Positions 7,347-42,877 of a DNA stretch of 42,877 nt are shown here, piece after piece (position 1 is the stretch's first letter; every line of letters starts with the position of its first letter). Location: positions 1-42,877 of IMG/VR virus record IMGVR_UViG_3300032018_000009; one strand, 5' to 3'. The notes below the pieces were generated by a model, which worked only from the letters and a program-made list of their open reading frames with translations, searched no databases and was not told the origin of the DNA. The translations under genes were made by a program, and so were the position numbers. The stretch comes from a virus.

Positions 7347-7724
7347 ATGTTGTATGTTAAAATAAACAAAAATTATTATGACAAGCTTGAGGATTGGATG
7401 TATGATATTGATAAAGATCATTTAAATTTTTTAGATACTTTGCAGGCATTGTACAAGGCTTATACTGGAGAAGAAAGGTTGTTAAATTTGCCTGTTATAA
7501 AACAGGTAATTAAATCAGAAGATTGGAGCGAGATATCTCTTTGGAATTACAGAATACATTTAGATTTATATCAATTCATGGCTGATTTAGGAGCAAGGTT
7601 AACACCACCGATAGTAGTGATACCGAAGATACTGAAGGCTTCAAGCGAGGAAGATGCAATATATAAAGAGTATTTAATGCATCGGGACATTGAGCAGTTT
7701 TTAATAAGCTTAGGAGGTGGTTAA
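7347..7724 (+). CDS. Unknown protein between nozzle and ejection genes
   Basis: A 125-aa, mainly helical, aromatic-rich protein (MLYVKINKNYYDKLEDWMYD, a long central helix, and the tail KEYLMHRDIEQFLISLGGG). It starts 6 bases after the nozzle gene and its C-terminal codons contain the ribosome site of the next gene (GGAGG at 7711-7715). No family is recognised. A virion role is probable from its place in the tail/ejection operon. Confidence 0.65.
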   Translation: MLYVKINKNYYDKLEDWMYDIDKDHLNFLDTLQALYKAYTGEERLLNLPVIKQVIKSEDWSEISLWNYRIHLDLYQFMADLGARLTPPIVVIPKILKASSEEDAIYKEYLMHRDIEQFLISLGGG

Positions 7725-20328: not shown

Positions 20329-23061
20329 CTAAAAAGGTATACCATCATCAGGCGTCGGAACATTAATTTCTCTTATTTCCTCCGTTTCTTCCCCTTCCTC
20401 ATTTTTTTCCTTAGGCATTGTTATCACTTGAGCCAGAGGGTTAGGTCTCCCTGTGCTTCTTATCACTGCTCCCGCAAGCTCATTGACAATGTTCTCAGAT
20501 ATTTTCTTCAAATCAAACTCATAAACAGAGACGGTCATCTCTGTGCCCCCGTATTTAACCTTTCTCGCTTTAGTATATCTTTTAACTGACCCCGTTGCGT
20601 CAGTCGAATAAAACACAGAGATCACACCCGCTTCTTCAAAAAGCTTTAAAATTGTTCTCAAGTCTAATTTAACAAAATCTCTAAAATATTCCAAACATTC
20701 TCTCGTGACATAAACCTTCTCGTGCACAGTATCTATCTCTCCAAATACTAAATTCCTCGGAACTTGCTGATCTATCGAGTTTCTTATAACAAAATGAGGC
20801 GCTCTCGAAAGTAAAAACTCAGTAAAAGTAGATAAAAATCTCTCAAGACTTAAATCAAGCTTCTCTAACTGATAAGACAATAAAGCACAAAGATTTCTTT
20901 CAAGAGTGCTTATTTCTTGCTGTGAAAGATTGTAAAACTTCTTCAAAAAGTTAAAACTTTTCTCTATCAATGGCGTAAAGGTAAAAATCTGAAATTGCTC
21001 AGGCAGTTCTATTTCTATCTCTACATCTCCTTCTTGCTCAAGAAATTTGATATAATCAAACGCACAACCACATGCTATTCTCATCAACTGATGTAAATCT
21101 TGCGGGCTTACTTTCTCTGTATAATTGCCCCAATGGTCAACAGGAACTAAAATATATCGCCTTTCAGCCCCTCGCCTTTCAAACTGTGGGTCTACCTCCC
21201 CCGTTATGAAAACTACCGACTTAAGCAAAGTAATATCTATCGATAAGTCCTTGGTTCCTCTTAACTTTCCTACTCCGCCCGCTATCTTAAAGACACGCTC
21301 TTGAAGCTTGCTATCTGATATCAATGCTGTTTCATCAAAAAGTATAGGCAAATTATGAAACCGTCTCATGTAGAGCTCAAATCCCGTCTCTGTCGCATTC
21401 AAAGTCATCGGCACATTAACATTGTAAAAAAGGCTCATGACGAATTGAGAAGTCGTTGTCTTTCCTACTCCACGAGGACCTACATCAAACACTGTAAATC
21501 CTGAAAGATTGTTCTCTATAAATAAACTCGCTACTCCTAAGACTATTTTTACTCCAAGCCATCGTCCTTCTATTAACAACTCCCTGACTAATTCATGCTG
21601 TTTCGAAGCGTTCACATATTTAAAATGTTCGACTTCTTTTGGGTCAAGATCACAATATAAGCCATTTTCGACTAAAGCACTTTGATTAAGCGGATGAACA
21701 AATAACCGTTGGCTTCCCGTTTTATACCATCCAATTTCCTGTAAAAATAGCTTCTCTTGGTGATTACGAATTAAAGCATCTAATAAGAACTTGAGGTTGC
21801 TTCCGTCTAAAATAGGTCTACCGAGAAAATTTTGCAGTTCTAAAGTATCAAGTCTAATCCTTCCTATCCGTCTCGTTTCGCAATTATATACTACATAAAC
21901 AGGCTCATTAGTAGTAGGCTTAAACCCTCTGTCTTTCAATAAAAAACCCGCACAAATAGGTTTTAACTTCTTAGGCTTTTTGTCTTCTTTATCTTTCTCA
22001 CTGTCGATAAGCAGATACCAGTCATTTTCAATGAGAGCAAAGACTTTAGTTCCATGTTTAATAATCTCTTGAGCTCTTCCTAAATCATCCTCAGTGTAAA
22101 CGGGAACACCTGGGACTTTGGGTTTGGAAAGTCTACCTAAAATGAAAGAAGCTGTTCGAGCATCCTCCTCATTAAAAACTTGCTGTGTCAAAATACTAAT
22201 CCCCGCTACTTCCTCTATCGGCTTTTTGTAGGTCTCCTCTATTGCTGATAAGCGTTGCTTGTAGCTATCATCATCGTTTAACCCTTCATAAAGTTCTTTC
22301 TTTAAAATGTCCTCTACAACTTCACGAGGTAGAAATAACTTTCTTGCTATCCCTGCTAAACCGAGCCAAATTGTCTGTCTCAACCCCTCTACATAATATT
22401 TCTTGCAAAGTTCAACTATCTGTAAAAACTTAGATACTTTTGTTTCATCGCCTACCCTTGAAGCAAATACTTGAACGTTAGCTTGAACCCGTTCTGTCTC
22501 AAATTCTTTGCCTGAACGCTTGTATGCTTTGACTAGAAGCTTTTTAAAAGCTTCAAAATCAAGTAAAGCAATATTGAGCTCATGATTTACTACATCGTAA
22601 CCATCAATGAAAATGTATTTATGAATAGTTCCATTATTCCGAACTTCAGAAGGAGGGGCTACTGCGTATCTGCGACCAAATAGAAATTCAATCTTAAACA
22701 CTTCATCAGGGTCATTAAGCTTAATTGACCGTCTTTCAAAATCATCAGGAACATTGTATAATCCATACCAGTAATGATGCCCTCTTCGGGTCTTGACAGT
22801 AACTGTTGGGATAAATTCTTCTTGAGCTTCAAACCAGGTGATAGCTTCAGGACTGTCGCAATCAATGATAAGTAAATTGTTAAATCCTGAAACTATTCCA
22901 ACATTACCCTGATGTTTTTCCCAGTAGTATTCTACTTGCCCTGTATCATAAACTTTTTCTAAATCGAAGCCTTTTACTGGAACTTTTGAAAGCTGAGCAA
23001 GCGGAATGGCAACGAGGCCATACTTTCGATATAGACGCAAAAATTTTTTTAGCTCGCTCAT
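20329..23061 (-). CDS. Primase-polymerase (AEP) fused to DUF927-like helicase
   Basis: A 910-aa replication protein. Residues 1-200 are an archaeo-eukaryotic primase-polymerase domain: GIVSG followed by LLIIDCD (metal ligands D67 and D69), TRRGHHYW with the conserved His, and FGRRYAVAPPSEV. Residues about 450-690 form a P-loop ATPase: Walker A GPRGVGKTT (K534), Walker B LPILFDET (D576, E577), VVFITGE sensor, and an arginine-rich ERRGAERR. The KIAGGVGKLRG segment after Walker B resembles DUF927 helicases. It would prime and unwind at the phage origin. No separate DNA polymerase is seen, so the host enzyme or this PrimPol does synthesis. The C-terminal tail is acidic (EEGEETEEI). Confidence 0.87.
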   Translation of the reverse strand: MSELKKFLRLYRKYGLVAIPLAQLSKVPVKGFDLEKVYDTGQVEYYWEKHQGNVGIVSGFNNLLIIDCDSPEAITWFEAQEEFIPTVTVKTRRGHHYWYGLYNVPDDFERRSIKLNDPDEVFKIEFLFGRRYAVAPPSEVRNNGTIHKYIFIDGYDVVNHELNIALLDFEAFKKLLVKAYKRSGKEFETERVQANVQVFASRVGDETKVSKFLQIVELCKKYYVEGLRQTIWLGLAGIARKLFLPREVVEDILKKELYEGLNDDDSYKQRLSAIEETYKKPIEEVAGISILTQQVFNEEDARTASFILGRLSKPKVPGVPVYTEDDLGRAQEIIKHGTKVFALIENDWYLLIDSEKDKEDKKPKKLKPICAGFLLKDRGFKPTTNEPVYVVYNCETRRIGRIRLDTLELQNFLGRPILDGSNLKFLLDALIRNHQEKLFLQEIGWYKTGSQRLFVHPLNQSALVENGLYCDLDPKEVEHFKYVNASKQHELVRELLIEGRWLGVKIVLGVASLFIENNLSGFTVFDVGPRGVGKTTTSQFVMSLFYNVNVPMTLNATETGFELYMRRFHNLPILFDETALISDSKLQERVFKIAGGVGKLRGTKDLSIDITLLKSVVFITGEVDPQFERRGAERRYILVPVDHWGNYTEKVSPQDLHQLMRIACGCAFDYIKFLEQEGDVEIEIELPEQFQIFTFTPLIEKSFNFLKKFYNLSQQEISTLERNLCALLSYQLEKLDLSLERFLSTFTEFLLSRAPHFVIRNSIDQQVPRNLVFGEIDTVHEKVYVTRECLEYFRDFVKLDLRTILKLFEEAGVISVFYSTDATGSVKRYTKARKVKYGGTEMTVSVYEFDLKKISENIVNELAGAVIRSTGRPNPLAQVITMPKEKNEEGEETEEIREINVPTPDDGIPF

Positions 23062-25060: not shown

Positions 25061-25567
25061 TTAATAAACTTTGCTGAAAACAAAATCAAAATCTAAAGTT
25101 TTTAGCTCCTCTTCTGAGAGCACCTTGCCCTCTGGCAATCTTGTTCTGAGGACAAAGTGGAGGGCGCTGTCGCCCTCTCTCATTTTGACTGCTATTCTGT
25201 TATAGGGTATCTCTACCCCTAATAGCTCTGTGAGCACTTTTGCAGTTGCCTCGTGCCCAATTGCCGATACAAAAGAATTTCTTCTGACAAGCCCCTTAGC
25301 GGTTTTCAAGTCAACTTTTAAAATCTCAACCAAATACCGATCCTTCTCTTGCAAATCAACAGGTATAACAAGTGTGTTTAAAATGTAAAGCATACCCGCA
25401 CCTCCTTTTTTTTGATTTTTTTGCTGAGTTATTAACTCCCAGATGCCCTCTTTTAGTAGATCCGACTTCGTTCTCCCGAACATTCGGGCAATCTTGCAAA
25501 GTTTCTGATATAGCTTTGGGTTAACTGCCGTTCCTATTCGCTCTTCTACTGTCTTCATTTTTGGCAT
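25061..25567 (-). CDS. RHH domain fused in frame to AcrIII-1 (DUF1874) viral ring nuclease
   Basis: 168 aa. Residues 1-50 look like a ribbon-helix-helix DNA-binding domain (ERIGTAVNPKLYQKLCKIAR, then MFGRTKSDLLKEGIWELI). From M59 (base 25393) the protein matches the DUF1874/AcrIII-1 family: MLYILNTLVIPVD, FVSAIGHEATAKVLTELLGV, NRIAVKM, RTRLPEGKVLSEEEL. Numbered from M59, His47 lies in GHEATA with R66, R85 and E88 in the positions conserved in SIRV1 gp29. Known family members degrade cyclic tetra-adenylate and so switch off type III CRISPR effectors. An ideal ribosome site (AAGGAGGTG) sits in the linker codons, so a separate 110-aa nuclease is probably also made. Confidence 0.88.
   Translation of the reverse strand: MPKMKTVEERIGTAVNPKLYQKLCKIARMFGRTKSDLLKEGIWELITQQKNQKKGGAGMLYILNTLVIPVDLQEKDRYLVEILKVDLKTAKGLVRRNSFVSAIGHEATAKVLTELLGVEIPYNRIAVKMREGDSALHFVLRTRLPEGKVLSEEELKTLDFDFVFSKVY
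25398..25422 (-). promoter_or_regulatory. Internal ribosome site and A-runs at the RHH/AcrIII-1 junction
   Basis: On the minus strand a run of seven A (25416-25422), TC, and a run of eight A (25406-25413) lead into AAGGAGGTG (25399-25407), 5 bases before ATG at 25393. These bases encode the linker QKNQKKGGAG in the long frame. The A runs are possible slippage or assembly-error sites. Confidence 0.8.
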
Positions 25568-25712: not shown

Positions 25713-25731
25713 TCTGTCCTCCCCATAAATA

Positions 25732-25805
25732 AGCCCCTGGGAGGATTTGAACCCCCACCCTTGGGATTAGAAGTCCCATGCTCTGTCCTATTGAGCTACA
25801 GGGGC
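25732..25805 (-). tRNA. tRNA-Arg (anticodon UCU)
   Basis: A complete cloverleaf of 74 nt on the minus strand: acceptor GCCCCTG/CAGGGGC, D stem GCTC/GAGC, anticodon stem TGGGA/TCCCA with loop CTTCTAA (anticodon TCT), variable AGGGT, T stem GGGGG/CCTCC with loop TTCAAAT, discriminator U. No CCA is encoded. It would read AGA, a frequent arginine codon in these genes. Confidence 0.95.
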
Positions 25806-25818
25806 TTTTATCCGTAGT

Positions 25819-32051: not shown

Positions 32052-32720
32052 TTAATCCTCAAAACCACCATCAACCTCTTCTATCTCTTCCTCTAAAGTC
32101 TGCTCCACTTCCCGAACTAATATCGAATTACCCGCCACAGTCACTCCCTCAATCCTCTTCTCAGCCTTTAATATACTTTTCAATTGAAACAAAACCTCTG
32201 ACAGCCTCTTCTCTATCATAACATAATAACCACTCACCATGCTCCTATTCGGCTTGGTTATCCTTACCGCTATACAATACTGCCTCTTACCCTCTCTCTC
32301 CCAATACCTCAATATCCCTAAATCACCTAATAACTTCAATACCCCTTGCTTACTATACCCTAAATCAAATGCCCTATCTAAAAACTCCTGCATCGTCCCC
32401 CTCTTCAATAATATTAATCCCCTCTTCTTATCAAAACCCTCCATCTCCCCATTGTCATAACTAACACTCCACTCCTTCTTCCTCTCTAATACCCACTGCC
32501 AAAATACTTTTAACAACTCTAACTCCTCTCTACTCAAATCCCCTACCTCTAACCGCACTTCCCCTACCTTCCCCTCAACCCTCTTCAACTTCCTCCCTAA
32601 TAACCGCTCCAATATCAACCGCATGTCCTCTAACTCCCTCCTCATCTCCCGCACCTCTACCACTAAACTATCCACTAACCCCACTAATCCCTCTACCAAA
32701 CGCTCAATCTTACTCTCCAT
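32052..32720 (-). CDS. Coiled-coil protein with winged-helix-like domain; possible origin/array-binding protein
   Basis: A 222-aa protein. Residues 1-45 form a coiled coil (VEGLVGLVDSLVVEVREMRR). About 70-150 contain a helix-rich domain ending in a winged-helix-like part (MQEFLDRAFDLGYSKQGVLK, LLGDLGILRYWER then GKRQYCIAVRI). The C-terminus is acidic. It is the first leftward gene next to the repeat-filled control region and has its own promoter (32749-32777). Iteron-binding initiators and partition proteins are commonly encoded beside their sites, so this is the best candidate for such a role. No named family is recognised. Confidence 0.62.
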   Translation of the reverse strand: MESKIERLVEGLVGLVDSLVVEVREMRRELEDMRLILERLLGRKLKRVEGKVGEVRLEVGDLSREELELLKVFWQWVLERKKEWSVSYDNGEMEGFDKKRGLILLKRGTMQEFLDRAFDLGYSKQGVLKLLGDLGILRYWEREGKRQYCIAVRITKPNRSMVSGYYVMIEKRLSEVLFQLKSILKAEKRIEGVTVAGNSILVREVEQTLEEEIEEVDGGFED

Positions 32721-32748: not shown

Positions 32749-32777
32749 ATCTTAACTCAACCTCTGTTCTTTGTCAA
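32749..32777 (-). promoter_or_regulatory. Promoter of the 222-aa gene
   Basis: On the minus strand TTGACA (32772-32777), 17 bases, TAAGAT (32749-32754). The -35 box lies inside the first iteron-like repeat (GTCAATAGTATTACAGCAT on the other strand), so a repeat-binding protein would repress it. Confidence 0.75.
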
Positions 32778-33270
32778 TAGTATTACAGCATGACATCATC
32801 ATCCTTAGCCCTTGTCAATAGTATTACAGCATTACAAATATGACAACCTGCCCTTTATATGCCCGCAATGCCCCTCTGTCGATACTATGACAGTATTACA
32901 AGGATTACAGTCAATAGTATTACAGCATTACAAGCATGACAACTTACCCTCTGCTATCTTTCCCTCTCTCCCTGTCATACTATTACAGCATGACAAGTAT
33001 TACAAACTAACCCCCTATATATCCCTGATGTCCCCCTGTAATGCTATGACAGCATTACAAGTATTACAATATGCCCATTCCTGTACTTCTCAGATGCTCT
33101 CTCCGTTTCGTTCTATTTTGCTGATGGTGTTCTTTTTTCTGTTTTGTAATGCTGTCATACTTTCTCTGAAATACTAATAAATTCTACTTTTCCTATGATA
33201 TGTAATACTGTTACTAAACTATTATCATACTGTAATCTGTGTGTCAATACTTTACAGCATTACAGTCATA
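32774..33270. repeat. Iteron-like repeats built from TATTACAG/CATTACAA octamers
   Basis: TCAATAGTATTACAGCAT is present at 32774 and recurs at about 32816 and 32911. Variants with ATKACA boxes follow (GTCGATACTATGACAGTATT, GTCATACTATTACAGCATGA, GTAATGCTATGACAGCATTA) and two more, one inverted, lie near 33145 and 33242. Within a unit the ATTACA/ATGACA boxes are 8 or 9 bp apart. At least seven units in about 500 bp, spaced by C/T-rich filler. Frames through it look like chance. Confidence 0.8.
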
Positions 33271-33283
33271 CTTTTCCCTTTTG

Positions 33284-33495
33284 CGTGGAACATTTGCTTC
33301 TAAGTCAGTATTCATGCGGTCTCCGAGACATGCTTCCGTGGAACATTCTTTTAATCCACACTAAACAAATCAGTAATTACCCTCTGTGTCTTGTCCCCTC
33401 AGCCCTTCAGACAATCTGTATTGCTCCAATCTTCCCTTTTTCCGTGGGACACTCTGCGTGGAACACACCATCTGTGGAACACTTTCCATGGAACA
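33284..33495 (+). repeat. Six direct repeats of NGTGGAACA
   Basis: CGTGGAACA at 33284, 33337 and 33457; CGTGGGACA at 33443; TGTGGAACA at 33473; CATGGAACA at 33487. The last four are 14-16 bp apart. The motif equals one half-site of the bacterial parS palindrome TGTTCCACGTGGAACA, but no full palindrome occurs. Confidence 0.6.
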
Positions 33496-33529
33496 CTTCT
33501 CCGTTTGCTCGCTGTGGGTTCTGGACGAT

Positions 33530-33785
33530 ACTCTATCAATCAGGCATTCAGGCACTTAGCCGTTCGGTCACTCGGTCTCTCGGGCACTCCGCACTTCGGA
33601 ACTCAGGCTCTTCGGAACTCAAGCACTTCGGCGATCGACCACTCGGCCGTTCAGACAATCAGACACTCGACCACTCGACCACTCGATCACTCGATCACTC
33701 GATCACTCGATCACTCGATCACTCGGATAATCAGGCATTCAGGCACTTAAGCATTTGACCGCTTGACCACTTGACCACTCAGAGC
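33530..33785 (+). repeat. Octamer array, consensus CTCGRNCA, strict 8-bp period (about 32 units)
   Basis: Five perfect CTCGATCA units run from 33682 to 33721, flanked by CTCGACCA (33666, 33674). Degenerate units in the same register extend left (ATCAGACA, TTCAGACA, CTCGGCCG, ATCGACCA, back to about 33530) and right (CTCGGATA, ATCAGGCA, TTCAGGCA, CTTGACCA twice, to 33785). The + strand frame through it gives an 8-residue repeat peptide and has no ribosome site. Confidence 0.88.
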
Positions 33786-33810
33786 TCAAGCAATCTGTAT
33801 TTAACCACTC

Positions 33811-33898
33811 TGCATTCGTTTATTCGCTTTTTCGTTTATTCGCATAATCGCTTATTCGTTCTTTCGAGCAGTCGGCGACTTGGCTACTGAGAAACTGA
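33811..33898 (+). repeat. Second octamer array, TTCG every 8 bp (11 units)
   Basis: TTCG at 33815, 33823, 33831, 33839, 33855 and 33863; ATCG at 33847; GTCG at 33871; CTTG at 33879; CTGA at 33887 and 33895. All are exactly 8 bp apart, but the phase differs from the CTCGRNCA array. The filler between boxes is A/T-rich. Confidence 0.82.
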
Positions 33899-33902
33899 GC
33901 TT

Positions 33903-33997
33903 GTGAAAAATTTCACGAGCCCTTGACAAGGGCATGTGAAAAAATTCACGTGAAAAAATTCACAAAGTCCTTGTCAAGAGATTGTGAAAAATTTCAC
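33903..33997. promoter_or_regulatory. Dyad-symmetric cluster of four GTGAAA..TTTCAC boxes (operator or origin)
   Basis: 14-bp boxes GTGAAAAATTTCAC (33903-33916 and 33984-33997) flank two abutting GTGAAAAAATTCAC boxes (33936-33949 and 33950-33963). CCTTGACAAGG and CCTTGTCAAG lie between the outer and inner boxes on either side, so the whole 95 bp is an imperfect palindrome centred at the inner junction. The outer boxes with flanks read TGTGA-N6-TCACR, like CRP/FNR-family sites. Confidence 0.78.
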
Positions 33998-34147
33998 ATA
34001 GACTTGACTTTTGGCAAGTTTAGGCATAGGCAAGGTAAGCTTGTTTTTTTGGTTTAAAAATTTTAGCTAAGATAAGAAAAAAAGAGAAAAGAGAAAAAAA
34101 GGCAAGATTAAAAAGAAAGACTTTTTAAATTTGGCTTTTTAGAGGAC

Positions 34148-34175
34148 TTGACAAGTTAAAAATTATGCTTATATT
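34148..34175 (+). promoter_or_regulatory. Promoter of the winged-helix gene
   Basis: TTGACA (34148-34153), 16 bases, TATATT (34170-34175), about 65 bases before the ATG at 34240. It overlaps a CTTGACAAG element like those in the box cluster. Confidence 0.65.
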
Positions 34176-34239
34176 GATGCTTAAGATGCAAGGGCAAGGG
34201 CAAGTTAAAAAAACAAAAAACAAAAAAGGGGGGATCGGT

Positions 34240-34527
34240 ATGGATAGGATTAAAGAACAAATTAAAGAATTTATAGTCAAAAAAGTTAGAGAGAATGTAT
34301 CCGAACAAAGACCTTTTTTCTTTGTTAGATGGTCAGGATTATTTGAATTATGTCAGAATTACAATTTAGATTTATTGAAGTTAATTGATGAATTACATTC
34401 CGAAGGTAGAATTAGAAAAGCCCTTATTAAGGGCAAATTAGCTTTAACAACGGTAGAATTGGCTAAAAAAGCTAATAAAAAAGCTAAGAATATTCTTGAA
34501 GAATTTGCTCAATTTGCTCAAAGATAA
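34240..34527 (+). CDS. Small winged-helix-like regulator
   Basis: ATG at 34240 follows GGGGGGATCGGT; an upstream in-frame ATG at 34165 overlaps the promoter and is rejected. The 95-aa product is basic: a leading helix (DRIKEQIKEFIVKKVRENVS), FFFVRWSGLFELCQNYN, then LLKLIDELHSEGRIRKALIK and GKLALTTVEL, a helix - helix - two-strand wing pattern seen in small DNA-binding proteins. It is a one-gene unit with its own promoter and strong terminator between the early and late modules, as expected of a switch regulator. No named family is claimed. Confidence 0.68.
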   Translation: MDRIKEQIKEFIVKKVRENVSEQRPFFFVRWSGLFELCQNYNLDLLKLIDELHSEGRIRKALIKGKLALTTVELAKKANKKAKNILEEFAQFAQR

Positions 34528-34552
34528 TAATTAATAGCCCTTGCCCTTGCCG

Positions 34553-34585
34553 AAGGGGATCGGCATCTACCGATCCCCTTTTTTT
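34553..34585 (+). terminator. Strong rho-independent terminator
   Basis: AAGGGGATCGG (34553-34563) pairs perfectly with CCGATCCCCTT (34570-34580) around CATCTA, followed by T's to 34585. The right arm ACCGATCCCC is also exactly complementary to GGGGATCGGT just before the ATG of the same gene. Confidence 0.92.
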
Positions 34586-34666
34586 ATGTTTTAATCCAAT
34601 ATTGAAATTGACTTTCAAAATCAATTGGGGACTTGGTGTTTAGAATTATTCCAATTGCAAAGTTAA

Positions 34667-36090: not shown

Positions 36091-36561
36091 TTAAGGCGAA
36101 GCGTGGGTGGTGAGGTAGTAGTAGAGGAGATTTAAAGCATCGTAGATGTGAATGAGTTTAGGTGGTAGTTGGGTGGGGGAATAGGATTTTTTAGGTTTGT
36201 TGATGAGTTTATAGGGTATCTGGTAGGTATCTGCGATGGCGGTAAGGTAGCCGATTGAGATGAGGCAATCTGTAGCGTGTTTTCGAGGTGAGTAAAGGTT
36301 GAAGTTTTCGATGATGATGAGGGAGTAATTGTGGGTGTGTAGGAGGTTTTTGAGGGTGGATGAGAGGAGTTGGGAGTTGGTGTCGTAGAGGAACTGGAGG
36401 GCGAGTGGAGGTTGGGTGGAGATGAGCGCTGAGTTGGTTGGTCCTGGGTCGATTGAGATGATTGGAGGTAAGTTAGAGGGTAGATAGGGTTTGATATCGA
36501 AGTGGATGATTTTTGGTATTAATGTTTTTATGCGAGTTGTTTTTTTCTTTTTCTGTGGCAT
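36091..36561 (-). CDS. RuvC-like Holliday junction resolvase (RNase H fold)
   Basis: 156 aa on the strand opposite to its neighbours. ISIDPGPTNSALI gives catalytic D38, SLIIIENFNLYSPRKHATD gives E85, and KLIHIYDALNLLYYYL gives H138/D141. This matches the D - E - (H/D)xxD order of RuvC and poxvirus/phage resolvases that cut branched DNA before packaging. The coding strand is almost free of G: the protein has no Val, two Gly and a single Glu, which is E85. No clear ribosome site precedes the ATG, so it may be leaderless or weakly expressed. It converges with the methyltransferase gene and diverges from the 36607 gene. Confidence 0.82.
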   Translation of the reverse strand: MPQKKKKTTRIKTLIPKIIHFDIKPYLPSNLPPIISIDPGPTNSALISTQPPLALQFLYDTNSQLLSSTLKNLLHTHNYSLIIIENFNLYSPRKHATDCLISIGYLTAIADTYQIPYKLINKPKKSYSPTQLPPKLIHIYDALNLLYYYLTTHASP

Positions 36562-42237: not shown

Positions 42238-42877
42238 ATGAAATTTTTGCGCAAAGTTTCACCGATTGCTACAGGCGCCATTACGAATACTGTTGGGGGG
42301 GATTTAACAGTTCAAGGGAATATAAATATTCAAGCAGGTAATAATGCTTCTATTGGAACGGTTGATAACTATAATTTGAGTTTGAGAACGAATAACGCTG
42401 ATAGAATTTTTATCACAAACACTGGCAACGTTGGCATCGGGACGGCAAGTCCATTGGAAAAATTAGATGTTATTGGTAATATTCAGAATATTCTAAGTGC
42501 CGATGCTCCACCAACTAGAATTGGAGCAGTAACTTTAAATGAAGGTGAAGACTATGGTACTTCAATAGCTGTTTCTGGAAGGTATGCTTATATTGTAACA
42601 GAGACATTCCCAGCCAAGGTAGTAGTAGTTGATATTTCAAATCCAGCTTCACCAACTAGAATTGGAGCAGTAACTTTAAATGAAGGTGAAGATAGTGGTG
42701 CTTCAATAGCTGTTTCTGGGAGGTATGCTTATATTGTAACAATGACGGTTCCAGCCAAGGTAGTAGTAGTTGATATTTCAAATCCAGCTTCACCAACTAG
42801 AATTGGAGCAGTAACTTTAAATGAAGGTGAAGATAGTGGTGCTTCAATAGCTGTTTCTGGGAGGTATGCTTATATTG
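42238..42877 (+). CDS. LVIVD-repeat tail fibre, N-terminal part (continues at base 3)
   Basis: ATG 42238 behind AAGGGAGGTGTGATGTT. The first 85 residues are a fibre stem (FLRKVSPIATGAITNTVGG, then RIFITNTGNVGIGTASPLEKL). The frame then enters half a repeat starting at PPTRIGAV and two full 47-residue LVIVD repeats and runs off the end. Joining through the 30-base overlap gives about 660 aa: half + seven full + half repeats, flanked on both sides by GNVGIGT..P..KL.V.G motifs. The two halves complement each other, as in propellers closed by pairing of first and last strands. Confidence 0.88.
   Translation, partial: MKFLRKVSPIATGAITNTVGGDLTVQGNINIQAGNNASIGTVDNYNLSLRTNNADRIFITNTGNVGIGTASPLEKLDVIGNIQNILSADAPPTRIGAVTLNEGEDYGTSIAVSGRYAYIVTETFPAKVVVVDISNPASPTRIGAVTLNEGEDSGASIAVSGRYAYIVTMTVPAKVVVVDISNPASPTRIGAVTLNEGEDSGASIAVSGRYAYI
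42510..42877 (+). repeat. Tandem 141-bp LVIVD coding repeats (right part of array)
   Basis: Half a unit from about 42510, one full unit beginning with the ETFPAK codons near 42600, and a second (MTVPAK type) reaching the window end. Bases 42848-42877 equal bases 1-30, so the array is continuous with the left end. The true copy number cannot be known from this assembly. Confidence 0.93.

Follow-up and report, generated by a model that had tools for sequence, protein, structure and literature searches.

A mirror-image array of four GTGAA boxes as a candidate replication-origin core in a relative of Hydrogenobaculum phage 1

Genome organization and setting of the dyad

The window analyzed here, that is, the whole stretch of 42,877 bp, is a single virus record and corresponds to a hot-spring phage genome of about 43 kb that is kin to Hydrogenobaculum phage 1 (HP1), with 98.5% identity for the terminase and 93.4% for the 910-aa Prim-Pol/DUF927 protein. 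According to work cited in PMC7689252, HP1 has been linked to the host Hydrogenobaculum via CRISPR spacers. A DNA search of annotated phages with the dyad region described below yielded no match; the HP1 record comprises 19,351 bp and ends before this region. Bases 1-171 are identical to the last 171, both within a gene made of 141-bp tandem repeats, which points to a probably circular or permuted genome. Both ends of the record (1-776 and 42505-42877) fall in this LVIVD-repeat gene, the repeats of which are 95% alike, and the repeat copy number is therefore uncertain.

The dyad is located in a non-coding region of about 1.5 kb between two divergent gene blocks, namely a leftward block that encodes the Prim-Pol/DUF927 protein, a Cas4-like exonuclease and other proteins, and a rightward block that encodes the portal, capsid and terminase. 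Three genes are central to what follows (identities refer to a related genome, denoted L032):

20329-23061, minus strand: 910-aa Prim-Pol/DUF927 protein with a winged-helix-like C-terminal domain, the proposed initiator
32052-32720, minus strand: 222-aa protein, encoded at the start of the leftward unit; conserved in L032 (38% identity)
34240-34527, plus strand: 95-aa protein; conserved in L032 (57% identity)

The leftward block also contains a tRNA-Arg (TCT) gene (25731-25806, minus strand) and a gene (25061-25567, minus strand) for a protein with an STIV B116-like domain, the N-terminal part ahead of this domain having the look of a ribbon-helix-helix; a separate small ORF of similar kind sits just upstream. 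The STIV B116-like family includes the ring-nuclease anti-CRISPR AcrIII-1.

Anatomy of the 95-bp dyad

The 95-bp dyad with four boxes that had been recognized in the original prediction is real, its boxes being exact instances of GTGAA-N4-TTCAC:

33903-33916, no strand: box 1 (outer), GTGAAAAATTTCAC
33921-33931: first CTTGWCAAG element, CCTTGACAAGG, with the core CTTGACAAG at 33922-33930, 4 bp from each neighboring 16-bp box
33936-33949, no strand: box 2 (inner), GTGAAAAAATTCAC
33950-33963: box 3 (inner), GTGAAAAAATTCAC, abutting box 2; the junction TTCACGTGAA is the dyad center
33968-33980: second CTTGWCAAG element, the imperfect TCCTTGTCAAGAG
33970-33978: CTTGTCAAG, including GTCAAG (33973-33978), which is kept in L032
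33984-33997: box 4 (outer), GTGAAAAATTTCAC, orthologous to the single box of L032
34003-34008, plus strand: CTTGAC, the mirror image of GTCAAG about box 4 (6+4+16+4+6 bp), conserved in L032

Read from left to right, the array consists of a 16-bp box, 4 bp, CTTGACAAG, 4 bp and a second box that abuts the third one, followed by 5 bp, CTTGTCAAG, 4 bp, the last box, 4 bp and CTTGAC; this last element falls beyond the interval 33903-33997 that was initially delimited. The elements predicted between the boxes are present as well, but the two halves of the dyad are off register by one base and the second element is imperfect. The distance to the downstream gene, predicted as 240 bp, is 242 bp to the ATG at 34240.

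The boxes are confined to this site: four GTGAAN4TTCAC boxes are found at the dyad and none elsewhere in the window even with one mismatch allowed, and the exact count of 4 compares with a mean of 0.045 and a maximum of 2 in 200 dinucleotide shuffles of the whole window. The outer inverted repeat (33902-33931/33969-33998) spans 30 nt with 83% complementarity. Within 33400-34600, the best dyad score is 17.5, centered at 33950 (mean 9.4 and maximum 13.5 in 100 shuffles). When folded as single-stranded DNA (-27.4 kcal/mol, z = -7.15), the dyad is predicted to adopt an outer stem with two apical box hairpins.

Repeats and promoter-like sites around the dyad

The dyad is embedded in a series of further elements:

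32749-32777, minus strand: promoter-like TTGACA-17-TAAGAT of the leftward (replication) unit
33441-33504: 14-bp repeats TCCGTGGAACACTC; TCCGTGGAACA is found in L032 too
33664-33725: iteron-like 8-bp repeat CACTCGAT, 7.8 copies
33814-33866: 8/16-bp repeats ATTCGCTT / TTCGTTTATTCGCTTT
34040-34140, plus strand: purine-rich stretch with about 70% A+T, right of the dyad, kept in L032 (AAGCTTGTTTTT...GATAAGAAAAAAAGAGAAAA)
34148-34175, plus strand: promoter-like TTGACA-16-TATATT of the rightward unit, conserved in L032
34552-34581, plus strand: hairpin resembling an intrinsic terminator, 3' of the 95-aa gene

The 8-bp periodicity reappears between 33530 and 33866. Repeats and an A+T-rich stretch adjoin the dyad; in an iteron-type origin, an A+T-rich region would lie beside repeated initiator sites, which are putative here, and the stretch at 34040-34140 is a candidate melting region. 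On neither strand does 33903-34140, the dyad included, contain a consensus sigma-70-type promoter, and the TTGAC hexamers at the dyad lack a good -10 element. The nearest promoter-like sites are located at 34148 on the plus strand and at 33247 and 32777 on the minus strand, which places them 150 bp to the right and at least 650 bp to the left of the boxes.

The sequence GCAAGGGCAAGGGC (34188-34201), ahead of the 95-aa gene, is fully complementary to GCCCTTGCCCTTGC (34537-34550) after it, and the L032 gene is bracketed by a different pair, GGCAAGGCAAGGC / GCCTTGCCTTGCC, that is again complementary; recurrence of such a pair in both genomes suggests conserved pairing of the 5' and 3' untranslated ends in the mRNA.

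Strand skew

The lowest point of cumulative GC skew, at 33865, is also that of cumulative purine skew and is 38 bp away from box 1; the GC skew of L032 bottoms out at 7475, less than 10 bp from the box at 7456-7469. The dyad thus sits exactly where the strand bias of the genome flips, which makes it probably an origin core rather than a site for a host regulator. The bias tracks the arm of the genome and not coding strand or codon choice, given that the reversed gene 36091-36561 (minus strand) retains the plus-strand G excess of its arm (0.74; 0.84 at third positions), as does its L032 homologue (0.83 and 0.96, respectively). In both arms, skew strength drops with distance from the dyad (Spearman -0.63 and -0.52). 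A second flip, at 17.5-17.9 kb, coincides with a change in gene direction instead of lying opposite the dyad, and part of the skew can therefore be due to transcription.

The gene 36091-36561 is the only reversed gene of the rightward arm and has the same orientation in L032. Its product is proline-rich, which fits a C-rich strand, and contains DPG and IIIENF motifs that look RuvC/RNase H-like, with no Pfam match.

The dyad region in related genomes

Only three genomes hold the dyad region: the present one, L032 (also G005) and G001 (also L028). The orthologous region of L032 comprises TTGTCAAGA, the box ATGAAAAATTTCAC, CTTGAC, the A+T-rich stretch, a TTGACA..TATATT promoter and the conserved 95-aa gene. 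Its single box, which corresponds to box 4, has one degenerate half (ATGAA), is enclosed by a perfect 10-bp inverted repeat (fold z = -2.99) and is flanked symmetrically by outward TTGACA hexamers; the spacing of GTCAAG and CTTGAC about it is identical to that about box 4, and copies of ATTCGCTC sit just before it. The presence of one box in L032 implies that four are not required in this group. G001 likewise has one box, a full match to TTGTGAAN4TTCACAA, which caps a dyad that has other arm sequences and is able to form a hairpin (fold z = -5.90). About 110 bp separate this box from the end of the contig; the surrounding stretch is still C-rich, so that the skew minimum of G001 falls elsewhere. 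What the three genomes have in common is a larger dyad tipped by a box; its outer arms differ in sequence among the genomes while mirror symmetry is retained, and the four-box form is particular to the present genome.

The 95-aa, portal and 515-aa proteins, used as queries, identified no contigs beyond those already found. Two contigs retrieved via the methyltransferase gene (L026 and L027) share that gene only, have no boxes and were discarded as relatives, and a match of the 95-aa protein in an Aquificota genome (G114) falls inside a SecA-like frame and was taken as chance. A scan of the collection for paired boxes detected TTGTGAA-N4-TTCACAA clusters in 21 stretches of unrelated viral contigs (L005-L025), one of which (L009) contains a run of 29-bp tandem copies of the box; no shared regulator was seen in the few ORF lists of such contigs that were examined.

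Candidate binding proteins

The 910-aa protein has significant matches to Prim-Pol and DUF927 domains. The model of its C-terminal 221 residues (mean pLDDT 66, 80-88 in the core) was compared with known structures using VIA-align. The SaPIBov1 Rep helicase (8tch) ranked first (Z 11.3, rmsd 7.3 over 153 residues) and SCCmec Cch (5dgk) second (Z 9.8, rmsd 2.7 over 98 residues), followed by structures of the pCW3 relaxosome accessory protein (Z 8.8 and 8.7), one of them bound to oriT DNA. All these matched structures are winged-helix domains belonging to proteins of replication or transfer. Foldseek alone yielded no significant match for this model, and the P4 origin-binding domain 1KA8 is not among the VIA-align matches listed, which excludes nothing. 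Thus, in a model of moderate confidence, the C-terminus of the 910-aa protein resembles the winged helix of SaPI Rep and SCCmec Cch. For the 95-aa protein, the earlier description as winged-helix finds no support: its predicted model is all-helical and has no PDB match, and Foldseek alone detected nothing significant.

Weighing the alternatives

The outer boxes had been compared with CRP/FNR sites, and they do fit the TGTGA-N6-TCACA core, lying within one base of the full 16-mer, with the inner boxes sharing GTGA-N6-TCAC. The Rex operator consensus TTGTGAAN4TTCACAA (PMC5317091), TTGTGAANNNNTTCACAA, is an even better fit, with 0-3 mismatches for the six boxes of the three genomes (1-3 in this genome and L032, 0 in G001). 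Accordingly, the boxes could be a site for a host global regulator, namely the redox repressor Rex or a member of the CRP/FNR family; of 136 Aquificota genomes, 131 encode CRP-type HTH proteins (PF13545). However, neither motif is clearly enriched in these genomes: TGTGAN6TCACA occurs about 99 times versus 86 for the control (hand tally) and TGTGAAN4TTCACA 10 times versus 8. Furthermore, no Rex DNA-binding domain (PF06971) scored over the cut-off in any of the 136, a set in which the membership of Hydrogenobaculum is uncertain, although controls were detected. Rex was therefore dropped despite the strong motif match, as was CRP/FNR; the phage also differs from known Rex regulation in having four sites at one locus and no metabolic gene. 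We consider a host regulator highly improbable, and the lack of Rex together with the unenriched motifs favors a phage protein.

Such a protein, whether the 95-aa one, the 222-aa one or one of the ribbon-helix-helix type, could bind the four boxes cooperatively as a transcriptional operator controlling the divergent units, with CTTGAC and GTCAAG serving as outward-facing -35-like hexamers that need the regulator. The outward hexamers about the L032 box agree with this possibility, as do two unrelated viral contigs, L011 and L014, in which a pair of boxes lies immediately beside a TTGACA-N17-TAAAAT promoter-like site, and the location of the dyad between divergent units keeps it under consideration. 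Nevertheless, the dyad itself overlaps no consensus promoter, the boxes occur at one place of the genome and are absent from other promoters, and an operator leaves the skew minimum in two genomes unexplained. We regard an operator as possible but tentative; of the early/late switch or origin core originally envisaged, the switch lacks direct support, no consensus promoter overlapping the dyad, and the origin core is the better supported. It is also conceivable, if distinctly doubtful, that the dyad is a structural element, a cruciform or T-shaped hairpin that functions as a nick, resolution or strand-switch site and in which the boxes are tips and not duplex sites for a protein. The fold scores in the three genomes and the mirror symmetry kept by diverged outer arms are compatible with such a role, but any operator dyad folds well in silico, the box sequence is conserved more than the arm sequence, which points to protein recognition, and neither an HUH nickase nor a protelomerase was identified in the subset of the genome's proteins that was searched. 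Protelomerase or telomere sites and partition sites were considered briefly and set aside, no matching gene being seen and L032 lacking the central palindrome.

The skew minimum, the conserved single box with its flanking dyad, the iteron-like arrays and the phage-encoded protein of the initiator type jointly argue for the dyad being the core of the phage replication origin, with a phage protein binding the GTGAA half-sites; we estimate the probability of this reading at slightly above one half. Against it, the true initiator sites could be other repeats of this region, the initiator assignment relies on a C-terminal model of only moderate overall pLDDT that Foldseek alone did not match, the four boxes are dispensable in the group, the G001 box is off the skew minimum, and the comparison covers three genomes. 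An origin that acts by structure, in which a T-shaped cruciform with an outer stem and two box hairpins at its head would be read by the Prim-Pol-type initiator of a tailed phage, appears to us rather unlikely.

A model of the origin and its relation to known systems

Under the origin-core reading, the putative binder, for which the winged-helix C-terminus of the 910-aa protein is the likeliest candidate and a small origin-linked protein the alternative, would recognize the GTGAA half-sites and assemble on the mirror-image array. The dyad might extrude as a hairpin or cruciform with the boxes at the tips, the adjacent A+T-rich stretch at 34.0-34.14 kb would then be opened, and forks would depart both ways, giving the two arms their opposing strand biases.

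The combination of a helicase and a winged-helix C-terminus in one protein is shared with P4 alpha, SaPI Rep and SCCmec Cch; the resemblance of the phage domain to the latter two comes from a predicted model, and its binding to the boxes is putative. P4 alpha differs from the phage protein in having a bacterial (Toprim) primase instead of a Prim-Pol.

Among Aquificae viruses, a bidirectional origin has been proposed for the 'Pyrovirus' genomes (TOSV/OS3173 and relatives), to which HP1 is peripherally related; the proposal places it in the equivalent intergenic region (PMC7689252). That region (750-1,350 bp) similarly separates divergent gene blocks, shows a sharp GC-skew switch, contains repeats predicted to form stem-loops and is accompanied by counter-oriented replication genes, including those for a DUF927-containing protein and a Cas4-like nuclease; unlike the present phage, the Pyroviruses carry a PolA polyprotein (PMC7689252). 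The GTGAA boxes are not named in the parts of PMC7689252 compared, a comparison of text alone. In the Prim-Pol plasmid pRN1, a stem-loop of about 100 nt is experimentally required for replication and serves as the origin (PMC4234260). The pRN1 protein ORF904 likewise combines Prim-Pol, helicase and a C-terminal winged helix, and the structure but not the sequence of the stem-loop is conserved; however, pRN1 has its stem-loop directly behind the rep gene and without iterons (PMC4234260), whereas the phage dyad adjoins repeat arrays and is separated by about 11 kb from the gene for the proposed initiator.

Implications

An origin in related Aquificae viruses, with repeats that form stem-loops, is thus already a published proposal (PMC7689252); the four-box dyad and the candidate initiator domain are not described in what we have consulted of PMC7689252 and PMC4234260. 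When the former appeared, no virus of Aquificota had been isolated, and the start of replication in such viruses is a proposal from skew and repeats alone. The present analysis adds a precise 95-bp candidate origin core, kept in reduced form in relatives, and a candidate initiator domain, so that the origin proposal can be reduced to a test of binding and plasmid replication. If the origin did act by structure, the dyad would parallel, in a phage, the stem-loop origin of pRN1, with the GTGAA-N4-TTCAC hairpin tip as the conserved signal and a stem of drifting sequence. The dyad accordingly bears on whether phage Prim-Pol initiators recognize stem-loops or duplex boxes.
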